DNA of 51,131 nucleotides from Propionibacteriaceae bacterium (GTDB lineage: Bacteria > Actinomycetota > Actinomycetes > Propionibacteriales > Propionibacteriaceae): contig JAUNKV010000020.1 in the NCBI GenBank assembly GCA_030532575.1, positions 1 through 51,131 on the forward strand, written 5' to 3'. The position numbers and the translations under genes are program-made. Below the pieces are notes generated by a model. It was not told where the DNA came from and made no database searches. It worked only from the letters and a program-made list of their open reading frames with translations. This document shows positions 24,725-29,174 of this stretch, one piece after another (positions within the stretch are counted from its first letter, which is position 1; each line of letters begins with the position of its first letter).

Positions 24725-25818
24725 TTTTCCTCTTCTCTTGACGCGGCCAGCAAGGCCTGCTTGGCCAGGACATCGGCGGCATCGGCCGGGGAGTGTGGTG
24801 TGGCGAGCGCACCCATCCGGGTGAGCTCCTGGGCATCGGTGATCGTGGGCACGACCACCTCCAGGAGTCTAGCGGCGCTGAGCTCTGCCTCGGGCAGCAT
24901 GATCCCAGCCCCGTCAGCCACCAGCCCAGCTGCGTTCCTGGCCTGCTCCCCATTGCCCCAGGGCAGCGGGATGAACACCACGGGCAACCCCAGCACGGCG
25001 GTTTCCATGACGGTCCCGGCCCCGGCCCGACCAACCATGAGATCGGCGGCCATGTAGGCCTCGATCATCGCGTCAACATAGGCCACCGGCACGTAGCTCG
25101 CCCCCGACGGGTCGGTGATGACCACGTCCTGATCAGTGAAGTTCTTGCCCCCAAGCACGTGAAGAACCTGGATGCCTCGGGCCAGCAGCTCCGGGACCGC
25201 AGCTTGGACCGCCTCGTTGATGGCACGGGCACCCTGGGAGCCGCCACTGACCAGCAACGTCGGCCGCTCGACGTCCAGCCCGAAACGCTGCCTCGCCTGG
25301 TCGCGGGTGATGGTCGGGGCCGTGATGGAACGGTTGATCGGCATCCCGATCCGCACCCCGCCCCGGATGTTCGTCTCCGGGAAGGTGTAGCCGGTGAAGC
25401 GCGCGAACCGGGCCGCCACCTTGTTCGCGACCCCGACCACGCGGTTCGCCTCGTGGACGCACACCGGGATGCGCATCGTCCTGGCCGCCAGGTAGGCGGG
25501 GATCGAGACGTAGCCGCCAAAACCCACCAGCACCTCGGCCCGGCTGCGTCGAAGGATCGCCCGGGCCTGCCTGACCGACTGCGTGAGGTTCCACGGCAGC
25601 TTCACCAGATCCAGGTTGAGGGTGCGCGGCAACGGGACGGGACGGATCAGCTCCAGCTGCAGTCCGGCCTGCGGGATGACCTTGGTCTCCAGCCCCTTCT
25701 CGGTGCCGATGCAGGTGATCTCCACCCCGGGGTCCAACTCCTGCAGCGCCTGCGCCGTCGCGATGAGGGGGGAGGTGTGCCCGGCGGTACCGCCCCCGGC
25801 CAGCACCACCCGGGTCAC
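24721..25818 (-). CDS. murG: Lipid II synthase, UDP-GlcNAc transferase MurG
   Basis: MurG transfers GlcNAc to lipid I at the inner face of the membrane. The 365-residue GT-B protein has the N-terminal glycine-rich loop (LAGGGTAGHTSPL), the second glycine loop (LVSGGSQGARAIN), and the C-terminal nucleotide-sugar site with AGAGTVMETAVLGLPVVFIP. The GTG start overlaps the ftsW stop (GTGA). Confidence 0.97.
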   Translation of the reverse strand: MTRVVLAGGGTAGHTSPLIATAQALQELDPGVEITCIGTEKGLETKVIPQAGLQLELIRPVPLPRTLNLDLVKLPWNLTQSVRQARAILRRSRAEVLVGFGGYVSIPAYLAARTMRIPVCVHEANRVVGVANKVAARFARFTGYTFPETNIRGGVRIGMPINRSITAPTITRDQARQRFGLDVERPTLLVSGGSQGARAINEAVQAAVPELLARGIQVLHVLGGKNFTDQDVVITDPSGASYVPVAYVDAMIEAYMAADLMVGRAGAGTVMETAVLGLPVVFIPLPWGNGEQARNAAGLVADGAGIMLPEAELSAARLLEVVVPTITDAQELTRMGALATPHSPADAADVLAKQALLAASREEEK

Positions 25819-27044
25819 GACTCCGCTCCCGCCGCCAGCACACTGGTCATCCGGGGACCGGCAGCCTTCCTGCGCTGGGCGAGGTGGGCGCGGGCACGAG
25901 GCGTGTCACGGGCACAGGCCAGCAGCACGCCGACCGCCATGAGATTGGCCATGAGGGCAGATCCTCCCGAGGAGATGAAGGGCAGGGGCACGCCGAGGAC
26001 GGGCAGCAGGTTCATGACCACCATGATGTTGACCAGAGCCTGCAGCAGGAACCAGCTGGTGATCCCCGCCGCGACGAGTCGATTGAACATCTTGTCGGAT
26101 TGCAGCGCCACCATGAAACCACTGCGCGCCAGAAGTGCGAAGAGCCCGAGCACCAACAGCACGCCGAACAGGCCGAGCTCCTCCCCCAGCACGGCGAACA
26201 CGAAGTCGGTGTGGGCTCCCTCCTTGAGCCCACCCCACTTCTGCTTGCTGGCGCCGAGCCCCAGCCCCCACCAGCCCCCGGAGGCCAGGGCGTAGAGCGC
26301 CGCCATCGGCTGGGATGCCAGGTCGGTGTTCGACTGGGGGTCGAAGAAGATCATGAACCGGGCCTTGCGGCTGTCGGAGCCCATGATGAGGATCGCCACA
26401 CCGATGGCGACCAGCCCGATGGCCGGGCCGAGGATACGCAGCGGGGTGCCGACGAAGAACAACAGGCAGAAGATGATGGCCCCGAACACCAGCCCCGTGC
26501 CGAGGTCCTTGCCGATGATGATGAGGCCGAGCAGGAGCAGCGAACAGGGGACGAAGGGGATGAACAGCTCCATCGGGCGGTGCAGCTTGTTGCGTTTGAC
26601 GTGGAACACCGAGGCCCCCCAGATCACCAACCCCAGCTTGGCGAACTCCGAGGGCTGGATGGTCAACAGCGTGCCCACGCGAATCCAGTTCCGGTTGCCG
26701 TAGATCTCGAAGCCGAGCGGGGTCTGCACCAGGATCAAGCCGATCAGGGCCAGGGCGAAACCGACCATGCCGAAGCGTCGCAGCAGATCGGGTTTCATCC
26801 GGCTGACCGGTATGAGCACCACCAGGGAGACCGCGAGGAAGAGCATCTGGCGGATGACGAAGTAGTACGGCGACTGCCCTTGGGATTGCGCGATCACCGC
26901 GCTGGAGGACAGCACCATCATGGTGCCGATGGCGGTGAGGATGCCGGTGGCGAAGACGATGAGGTGGTGATCCGCCATCGGCGAGCGGGTGAAGCTGCGC
27001 ACCAGGGAACCGGGCGGTGGTGCCGTCACTGAGGTGCTGGACAT
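25815..27044 (-). CDS. ftsW: Peptidoglycan glycosyltransferase FtsW
   Basis: FtsW is the SEDS-family polymerase that works with FtsI at the septum. The 409-residue protein has about ten membrane helices and the family signatures GNRNWIRVG, QPSEFAKLG and, near the end, LGVPLPFISSGGSALMANL. ATG 27044 has GAGGAG 4 nt upstream and gives a normal cytoplasmic N-terminus. A 133-nt gap separates it from the murD-like gene, the only real gap between rsmH and ftsQ. No other gene is seen in that gap. Confidence 0.96.
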   Translation of the reverse strand: MSSTSVTAPPPGSLVRSFTRSPMADHHLIVFATGILTAIGTMMVLSSSAVIAQSQGQSPYYFVIRQMLFLAVSLVVLIPVSRMKPDLLRRFGMVGFALALIGLILVQTPLGFEIYGNRNWIRVGTLLTIQPSEFAKLGLVIWGASVFHVKRNKLHRPMELFIPFVPCSLLLLGLIIIGKDLGTGLVFGAIIFCLLFFVGTPLRILGPAIGLVAIGVAILIMGSDSRKARFMIFFDPQSNTDLASQPMAALYALASGGWWGLGLGASKQKWGGLKEGAHTDFVFAVLGEELGLFGVLLVLGLFALLARSGFMVALQSDKMFNRLVAAGITSWFLLQALVNIMVVMNLLPVLGVPLPFISSGGSALMANLMAVGVLLACARDTPRARAHLAQRRKAAGPRMTSVLAAGAES

Positions 27045-27177
27045 CTCACTCCTCGAGGCGCTGACGGGGAAGACGGACGAAACGGCGCCCCGCGGCCCGT
27101 CCACCCACCATGTTCGTGGCTGGAGTGGGGAATGGGGTGGAGGTGACCCGCGTGTCGGTCAATCACTGGCCAAGCAG

Positions 27178-28107
27178 TCACTCCAGGCCGTTCAGGGCCC
27201 GCAGCCCAGCAGCCACCGCCTGGGCGGGGACCTTGAGACTCCTGGCCAGGGCCGCCGCGGCCGCGGCCTGGGCGACCCGCCCATCGGCCTGCTCGACCTT
27301 GGCCAGCTCCAGCGCGGAGCTGTGCCGCTGCGCCACGAAGGCACGGTCCACGATGAGGTCGTCGACCACCCCGACCATCGAGATGGCCGGGATCGCCGTG
27401 GTGAATCCGATGGCGCGCGCTCCCTCGGTCACCTCCGCCTCGGCCACCATGTGTTCGGTGGCAGGGTCCTCGACGTTGTACACGCAGGCATGGGTGACGC
27501 GCTCGTAGCAGCGCGCCAGGTCGGCGTCGTCTTCCCCGGAGGCCAACACCACCGCCGAGTGCAGGGCCAGGCTCGCCACGCCCCGCAGCTGGGCGGCGGA
27601 CAGCTCGACGACGATCACGTCGCGTGGGGCGTCGTCGAGAACGGCCTCGACCGCTGGGCGGCCGCACGATCCAGCCTCAGCCACCCGCAATCCTCCAGCC
27701 CTCAGCATCGCCGCCACCAGCCGGGCCACCTCGACCCGGTCACGGGCCCCAGCGATCCCCACCCAGGGCACCGTCGCACCCAGCGAGTGGAGCCGCCATG
27801 CCAGCTCGACCTCACTCCACACCGCCACACCACGCCCGACGGCCTCGACCGCCAGCGGCTCAGCACCGGTCCACCCCGTCGAGAGCACCAGCAGGTCGCA
27901 CTCCTCGGGCAGCCGGGCCGTGGCCCCCGCACCGAGTCGAACCGTCACGTCCAAGGACTCCAGCAGCCCGGCACGATCCGTGAGCCCGGAGTCGTCGTCG
28001 AGGACCGTGACCGTGGCCCCGAGCGCGATCAGGGCGTCGGCTGCGGCCATGCCGGAGCGGCCGAGTCCGGCCACCACGGCACGCCTGCCGTCCAGCCGAG
28101 CGCTCAC
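27178..28107 (-). CDS. Degenerate, C-terminally truncated MurD homologue in the murD position
   Basis: The position (between mraY and ftsW) and the N-terminal Rossmann domain identify a MurD relative: VVAGLGRSG (12-19), VLSTGWTGAEPL (74-85) and WSEVELAWRL (97-106). Normal MurD has about 450-490 residues and ligates D-Glu to UDP-MurNAc-L-Ala. This one has 309. The P-loop, normally GTNGKTT, reads GARDRVE (120-126), so the ATP-binding Lys and Thr are lost. The DHLDxH region is reduced to SGEDDADL. The product ends at ALRALNGLE (301-309), where the C-terminal ligase domain should begin. The following 133 nt cannot encode that domain in any frame. The frame is open and the GTG start overlaps mraY (GTGA), so it is probably translated but unlikely to be an active ligase. 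A scaffold or regulatory role is speculation. Confidence 0.85.
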   Translation of the reverse strand: MSARLDGRRAVVAGLGRSGMAAADALIALGATVTVLDDDSGLTDRAGLLESLDVTVRLGAGATARLPEECDLLVLSTGWTGAEPLAVEAVGRGVAVWSEVELAWRLHSLGATVPWVGIAGARDRVEVARLVAAMLRAGGLRVAEAGSCGRPAVEAVLDDAPRDVIVVELSAAQLRGVASLALHSAVVLASGEDDADLARCYERVTHACVYNVEDPATEHMVAEAEVTEGARAIGFTTAIPAISMVGVVDDLIVDRAFVAQRHSSALELAKVEQADGRVAQAAAAAALARSLKVPAQAVAAGLRALNGLE

Positions 28108-29174
28108 TGGCCCGCCACCCATTCGGTGTAGAACAGCCCGATGGCGGTGGCCACGCAGAGACCGCAGATGATCCAGAACCGGATCACGACCGTCACCTCG
28201 GCCCAGCCGAGCAGCTCGAAGTGGTGGTGGATCGGGGACATCTTGAAGATCCGCTTGCCCTTGGTGAGCTTGAAGTAGCTCACCTGCAGCGCCACGGACC
28301 CGGCCTCCATGACGAACAGGAAGCCCAGCACCACCATCAGCAGCTCGGTGCGGGTGAGGATCGACAACCCGGCCAGGGCCGCGCCGATGGCCATCGAGCC
28401 GGTGTCACCCATGAAGATCTTCGCCGGCTTTGCATTCCACCACAGGAAACCGAAGCAGGAACCAGCCATCGCGAAGGCCACCACCGCCAGGTCATAGGGG
28501 TCGCGCACCTCGTAGCACAACGGCCCGATGCTGGAGCTGCGGCCGCACCACTGGTTGAACTGCCAGATGTTGACCAGGGTCAGTGCCGCAAAGACCAGCG
28601 TGGCACTGCCGGCGAGGAGACCGTCCAGCCCGTCGGTGAGGTTGGTGGCGTTCGGCCAGGCCATGAGCAGGAACACGATCCAGATCACCGCCAGGATGAA
28701 GGGCAGGTGCAGCCAGGGGATGTCGCGCAGGAAGGAGATGAACTGCGAGGCCGGCCTCAGTCCCCGCTCATCGGGGAAGTTGAGGGCCAGCACCGCGAAC
28801 GTGCCACCGATGAGGAACTGGCCGATGAGCTTGCCGCGGGCGGTCAGCCCGAGGGAACGTTCCTTGGAGATCTTGGCCCAGTCATCGAGGAAACCGAGGA
28901 AGCCCATCGCTGCGGTGACCCCGATCAGCAGCAGCCCTGAGACGGTGGGAGGCTGCCAGAGGATCAGGTGGGACAGGGCGTAGGCCAGTACCACGGAACC
29001 GACGATGACCACCCCACCCATCGTGGGGGTGCCGCGTTTGGTCAGGTGCTCCTGCGGCCCATCGTCACGGATGAACTGCCCGTACTGCCGCCTGGTCAGG
29101 AAGGCGATGAAACGTGGGGTGGTGAACAGGGTGATGAGCAGGGCCAGGGCACCTGCCAGCAGGATGGTCTTCAC
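28104..29174 (-). CDS. mraY: Phospho-N-acetylmuramoyl-pentapeptide transferase
   Basis: MraY makes lipid I from UDP-MurNAc-pentapeptide and undecaprenyl phosphate. The 356-residue membrane protein has about ten helices. Family motifs include KRGTPTMGG near the N-terminus, NATNLTDGLDGLLAG with catalytic Asp residues, FMGDTGSMAIG, and the histidine loop SPIHHHFELLGW. The GTG start overlaps the murF stop (GTGA). Confidence 0.97.
   Translation of the reverse strand: MKTILLAGALALLITLFTTPRFIAFLTRRQYGQFIRDDGPQEHLTKRGTPTMGGVVIVGSVVLAYALSHLILWQPPTVSGLLLIGVTAAMGFLGFLDDWAKISKERSLGLTARGKLIGQFLIGGTFAVLALNFPDERGLRPASQFISFLRDIPWLHLPFILAVIWIVFLLMAWPNATNLTDGLDGLLAGSATLVFAALTLVNIWQFNQWCGRSSSIGPLCYEVRDPYDLAVVAFAMAGSCFGFLWWNAKPAKIFMGDTGSMAIGAALAGLSILTRTELLMVVLGFLFVMEAGSVALQVSYFKLTKGKRIFKMSPIHHHFELLGWAEVTVVIRFWIICGLCVATAIGLFYTEWVAGQ

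Follow-up and report, generated by a model that had tools for sequence, protein, structure and literature searches.

A truncated MurD, probably dead as a ligase, is retained beside a probable MurD2/MurL pathway in a Propionibacteriaceae bacterium and its relatives

The window, which is the whole analysed stretch of 51,131 nucleotides from a Propionibacteriaceae bacterium (contig JAUNKV010000020.1 of assembly GCA_030532575.1), carries an open frame of 309 codons at the murD place between mraY and ftsW, called pseudo-murD here (Table 1). Its GTG start overlaps the TGA stop of mraY as GTGA, and the surrounding MurC, MurG, FtsW, MraY, MurF and MurE, recognised by sequence rather than by a model scan for each family, are complete-looking open frames. 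An open, truncated murD coupled to mraY through this overlap and standing among otherwise intact mur genes had been described in a sequence-only reading of the window, and this picture was borne out. In the profile search pseudo-MurD scored 99.5-100.8 bits against TIGR01087 (murD), under the cut-off of 211.95, and the match stopped at profile position 304-305 of 441, which means that the C-terminal domain is missing. The N-terminal and central Mur-ligase domains are present, as PF21799 was matched with 28.2 bits and its cut-off of 27 was passed. When the AlphaFold model, built from an 8-sequence alignment (mean predicted local distance difference test score, pLDDT, of 76), was compared by Foldseek, the top 26 hits were all MurD structures (TMq 0.67-0.73).

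Table 1 Features of the pseudo-murD locus in the window
Feature	Position	Strand	Evidence
Pseudo-murD: N-terminal and central MurD domains, 309 aa, GTG start, without C-terminal domain	27178..28107	minus	profile match, frame, fold model
GARDRV at the position of the GTNGKT P-loop	27733..27750	minus	alignment
47-residue block VAEAEVTEGARAIGFTTAIPAISMVGVVDDLIVDRAFVAQRHSSALE, near-invariant across 20 truncated MurDs	27307..27447	minus	column conservation; no excess codon bias
CGACACGC with WhiA-type GACAC motif, 45 bases 5' of the listed ftsW GTG; probable DNA relic of the murD C domain	27150..27157	minus	conservation
mraY, overlapping the pseudo-murD start (GTGA)	28104..29174	minus	frame list
ftsW, next gene downstream of pseudo-murD	25815..27104	minus	frame list

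Similar truncated genes were found in both sister species, at 92% and 73% identity (one of the two is Arachnia propionica OH887_COT-365), and 17 more genomes of the order carry one as well. A sequencing or assembly error was thus rejected as the cause of the truncation, because a like gene is present in 20 genomes. In the closest sister (locus L046) the gap from the stop of the truncated gene to ftsW measures about 345 bases, compared with 74 in the window, owing to an extra stretch.

An active MurD is marked by the P-loop GTNGKT, by a carbamylated Lys together with a catalytic His, and by the C-terminal glutamate-binding domain, and all of these are wanting in pseudo-MurD. In the alignment the GTNGKT columns are occupied in register and without gaps by GARDRV, just as the sequence-only reading had it, and erosion is also seen in the active-site His column and in that of the carbamate Lys. 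The sequence-only reading had noticed an eroded DHLDxH segment. The same columns are largely lost in the whole truncated set, where Asn131 is kept in 0/20, Lys133 in 2/20, His203 in 2/20 and Lys220 in 0/20; by the numbering of E. coli MurD, Lys220 and His203 are taken to be the carbamate Lys and the catalytic His. The loss of the P-loop and the carbamate Lys, joined by that of the C domain and of further residues that are otherwise near-invariant, supports the claim that pseudo-MurD is dead as a ligase.

A second glutamate-adding route elsewhere in the genome had been anticipated and was found on contig C55, where a full-length MurD homologue (264.7 bits to the murD model, above the cut-off) adjoins a 453-aa MurL match. 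The MurL candidate scored 350.7 bits (E 9e-105); the model carries Xanthomonadales in its name, and its cut-off of 700 was not reached. No match to the glutamate racemase MurI (TIGR00067) was found in this genome; D-amino-acid transaminase was not searched for. At four positions, which we equate by motifs with E. coli MurD sites, the Asp, Lys, Ala and Leu found in MurD of the genus are exchanged for Glu, Arg, Pro and Phe in the C55 homologue. According to the accessible part of a study on MurD2, the same four exchanges distinguish E. coli MurD from Xanthomonas oryzae MurD2 (PMC8788868). Because MurL and an L-Glu-type MurD2 lie side by side and a MurI match is absent, the MurD2/MurL pathway very probably works in this genome, and D-Glu probably enters by this known route. 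Contamination as the source of the pair was rejected, as it is present in both sister species.

The distribution was examined in a first sample of 60 genomes including this one and in a second of 391 genomes of the order (Propionibacteriales). In the first sample MurL was found in 5/60 genomes, and MurI above the cut-off in 0/5 of them; one genome (G025, locus L018) showed neither a glutamate racemase match nor MurL, yet it has a full-length MurD. In the second sample 26/391 genomes gave MurL matches. Two of these (G598 and G640) had only a weak, distant MurL-like match (E about 1e-30) and kept MurI over the cut-off and a full MurD, and they were set aside, leaving 24 strong-MurL genomes. None of the 24 had MurI over the cut-off, and five showed sub-threshold hits (E 2e-6 to 7e-5). 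Their murD place held a truncated open frame of 308-365 codons in 20 (a set chosen as open frames from the match onward), a full-length MurD in three and a contig break in one (G006). The truncated gene was therefore present in 20 of the 23 assessable strong-MurL genomes versus 0/42 other genomes of the tree described below, of which 38 were without MurL match, two had the weak match and two, of Aeromicrobium, were not searched for MurL. Truncated genes occur in the genus of the window, in two further genera of its family and in two genera of another family. Outside the order, the mraY-ftsW interval of 19 MurL carriers contained no murD in 10, C-terminal scrap in two and a full MurD in four, and was unjudgeable in three; in the two scrap loci (L066 and L067, genomes G249 and G375) the MurD C-terminal piece alone was detected behind mraY, and the contig of L067 ends soon after. 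As a separate observation, five MurL-bearing genomes (G588, G590, G621, G632 and G679; loci L100-L104) carry two mraY genes at separate places; the second one also passes the family cut-off, and the stretch fetched around it gave no match to murD, ftsW or murG.

A tree of MraY and FtsW was built for 65 genomes (20 truncated, three full with MurL and 42 others), and in it truncated and intact loci are interspersed. Two genomes were left out of it: in G036 (C1 7386827-7388204; MurL-negative, MurI-positive) the MurD match lies in two adjoining pieces, owing to a frameshift or sequencing error, and in the 60% complete, MurL-negative G008 it lies in several pieces. The fewest changes needed are nine, and a Dollo count, in which a lost domain cannot return, gives 12 by eye. 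A single origin in one clade was rejected by the approximately unbiased (AU) test (p-AU 0.0076 overall and 8e-5 within one genus), for a group that was named after the first tree was seen. In seven supported independent pairs differing in MurL, with the two Aeromicrobium rows entered as MurL-negative without a MurL search, truncation went in the same direction in six or seven and never in the opposite one (median sign-test p 0.016). The truncations thus appear to fall in about 9-12 lineages. One shared glycine close to where the central domain ends marks the site: the protein stops 5-17 residues past it in 19/20 truncated MurDs and 37 residues past it in the remaining one. Three of them (G679, G635 and G509) retain GTKGKT, GTHGKT or GTHGRT without the carbamate Lys and the C domain, and they are early stages of the process.

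The ratio of nonsynonymous to synonymous change (omega) was estimated by pairwise codon likelihood with several starting values per pair. It was 0.057-0.092 in six truncated pairs, some of which share a genome, and neutrality (omega 1) was rejected in each (twice the log-likelihood difference 89-207). In five intact pairs from other genomes omega was 0.022-0.067; a sixth (G005/G017) was excluded because the upper bound of branch length was hit (t 54.6, omega 0.004). The conservation is concentrated in one block of the central domain (columns 244-290). When the near-invariant columns of intact MurDs were followed, 20/22 in the block and 29/85 elsewhere were retained in at least 19/20 truncated MurDs (Fisher p 1.4e-6). 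Mean pairwise identity in the block was 0.73 for 12 representatives of the truncated lineages and 0.68 for 12 intact MurDs, versus 0.43 and 0.65 in the ATP part and 0.54 and 0.61 in the N domain, the two sets being unmatched for divergence. Synonymous change within the block is normal, and its codon bias is below that of the rest (mean Kullback-Leibler divergence 0.069 versus 0.115 in intact and 0.093 versus 0.141 in truncated genes). A DNA-level cause of the block conservation is therefore not supported, and selection acts on the protein. One antisense frame was stop-free in 14/20 of the truncated genes, the only ones looked at, which is taken as usual at high GC content.

The block is not confined to truncated MurDs. 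At E 0.001, a hand-made query of 103 residues (block plus tail) matched 355/394 genomes of the class; many families gave strong matches, whereas those of f7, f17 and f21 were weak. The block is absent from the five MurD2s examined and is poorly kept in the MurD of four MurL-owning genomes from two other families. Family f31 is an exception to a simple rule, as relatives match the block well, yet its MurL carriers are without murD at this place.

The earlier suggestion that the protein is kept for another role is supported by the low omega, by the near-invariant block and by the many separate truncations that retain it. This role could also lie in the N domain: the pseudoenzyme might bind UDP-MurNAc-L-Ala and thereby regulate or feed MurC, MurD2 or MurL instead of docking. 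The N-domain identity given above is in line with this, and the Rossmann-type glycines are mostly kept (20, 16 and 19 of 20). However, the SPG loop, N156 and H203, which contact the substrate in E. coli MurD, are kept much less regularly (loop columns in 13, 10 and 11 of 20, N156 in 4/20 and H203 in 2/20), and the best-kept part is the block, at another place in the sequence. Substrate binding is thus regarded as unlikely.

Part of the lost C domain seems to survive as DNA upstream of ftsW, an element that the sequence-only reading had missed. Behind the stop, C-domain remnants, which read RHAPDVP or much the same and may or may not share the frame of the gene, were recognised in 5/20 loci at E 0.01 and in 6/20 at E 0.1. 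Among 46 intact murD genes the motif was located in 43, and in all 43 its Arg codon is CGA, whereas of 1383 Arg codons overall, motif codons included, 102 are CGA; codon 415 of intact MurD is CGA in 44/45, the most biased of 200 conserved columns. The octamer CGACACGC, which lies inside the C-domain coding region in intact relatives, remains before ftsW in 17/20 truncated loci, compared with 0.21 expected from mononucleotide shuffling. Each stretch tested also covers 60 bases at the 3' end of the frame, and in G207 and G684 the octamer reaches into the closing codons. It was not found before ftsW in G431, G537 and G688. In nine gaps of murD-deleted or scrap loci from other orders, GACAC or its complement occurs in eight (about 4.4 expected for this pentamer, summed), and CGACACGC is visible within the printed stretch in seven, L066 being among the loci with it. 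In the accessible part of a study on Streptomyces venezuelae, WhiA recognises the motif GACAC and activates ftsW directly, with a table distance of 269 bp (PMC3781837). By analogy, CGACACGC is probably a WhiA-type operator of ftsW that was formerly inside murD.

A gene that seems to hold a DNA-level signal raises the question of whether the frame is kept only for such signals, or to carry translation or transcription into ftsW (operon polarity), with the protein idle, and the bias at codon 415, which persists after truncation, fits this view. For polarity, however, any open frame would suffice, and neither a low omega nor a near-invariant protein block would be needed; one sister has some 290-345 bases between the stop and ftsW, and the block shows normal synonymous change and lower codon bias than the rest. 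This explanation is considered very unlikely. Least probable of all is a slowly decaying pseudogene whose frame stays open by chance in a GC-rich genome: the catalytic residues are gone and stops are rare at 73% GC, so that the argument of the sequence-only reading that random decay should have brought stops is weak (simulated P of none 0.086 at one neutral change per codon), but decay is contradicted most strongly by the omega of all six truncated pairs, and further by open frames in 20/20 truncated genes (albeit picked as such), by the near-invariant block and by the decayed C-domain piece still recognisable behind the stop in 6/20 loci, which serves as an internal control.

We therefore consider it probable that MurD2/MurL has replaced MurD and that the pseudoenzyme is kept as a docking partner, together with an ftsW operator. 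MurD2 would add L-Glu and MurL would epimerise it to D-Glu, so that the two enzymes do what MurD did as a ligase. Within the division and cell-wall cluster, the old murD has lost its ATP-binding motif and its glutamate domain, and the two-domain remainder is under purifying selection. Because conservation is highest in a single near-invariant central-domain block, pseudo-MurD most likely serves through it in docking or assembly of proteins of the cell wall or of division. FtsW, FtsZ, SepF, Wag31 or a Ser/Thr kinase are candidate partners, guessed by analogy with M. tuberculosis. A short DNA element from the former C-domain region would be kept as the ftsW operator, with conservation as its evidence and WhiA as the presumed binder.

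Several points weigh against this explanation. The docking role, its partner and the binding of WhiA are predictions from sequence. Part of each omega value may predate the truncation where its timing is unsure, some genomes enter two of the six pairs, and the identity sets differ in divergence. In the AlphaFold model, with its 8-sequence alignment, pLDDT is below 50 over most of the block. Three genomes of one clade (G632, G650 and G652; loci L091, L094 and L095) have strong MurL and no MurI over the cut-off, and they keep a full MurD with P-loop; in these MurDs N307, invariant in 43/43 comparison MurDs, is replaced by D and omega is 0.096-0.103, and they are possibly an early stage of the same process. 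The role of pseudo-MurD is also not universal, since 10 of the 19 MurL carriers outside the order have no murD at this place and two have scrap only.

In textbooks MurD figures as an essential enzyme and as a drug target, and it is viewed chiefly as an enzyme. Strong selection on a shortened, apparently dead MurD in this bacterium and many relatives points to a second function of MurD that is not enzymatic: in about a dozen truncations, apparently separate ones, the chemistry has been divided from a function that cells still seem to require, and they single out one 47-residue block as testable. In a broader form, the MurD of many actinobacteria would be two-functional, ligating D-Glu and recruiting or regulating the division or lipid II machinery through the block, and takeover by MurD2/MurL would have led to repeated dissection of the gene, with catalysis and the C domain removed, the block kept as protein and the ftsW operator as DNA; the chances of this being right or wrong seem to us evenly balanced. 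The truncated genes also show what becomes of murD in MurD2/MurL bacteria, add Propionibacteriales to the carriers of the pair and bring to light, within the murD coding sequence, what is probably a WhiA operator for ftsW.

Compared with the intact MurD of the genus, pseudo-MurD shares the location between mraY and ftsW, the N-terminal and central domains and 54-62% identity, and differs in lacking the P-loop, the carbamate Lys and the C-terminal domain and in a profile score far under the cut-off. The plastid MurE-like protein of plants is a Mur ligase homologue that was likewise retained after its ligase task was lost; unlike pseudo-MurD, it is eukaryotic and part of a transcription complex. 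In the literature searched, from which subscription papers were mostly missing, no report was found of a truncated or inactive MurD retained beside MurD2, or of MurL in Nocardioides. As far as the accessible part of the report goes, the Mur ligases of M. tuberculosis bind FtsZ, FtsW, FtsQ, Wag31, SepF and PknA/B, and not each other, by fragment complementation (PMC3605390). The scaffold role for MraY/FtsW proposed in the sequence-only reading would agree by analogy with these interaction data. In the Mur-ligase scaffold complexes, as given in the portions of the sources at hand (PMC3605390, PMC6420597), the partners are those of M. tuberculosis, or MurG elsewhere, and the ligases are active, whereas here a non-catalytic remainder stands alone. 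The WhiA operator of ftsW in S. venezuelae resembles the present element in having GACAC upstream of ftsW (PMC3781837, accessible part), whereas here, in another order, the operator is predicted from conservation inside and downstream of murD. Finally, the MurD2/MurL pathway of Xanthomonas and Micromonospora (PMC8788868) is matched here by adjoining MurL and MurD2 and by the absence of a MurI match, while the accessible part of that report does not mention the fate of the original murD and lists carriers outside Propionibacteriales.
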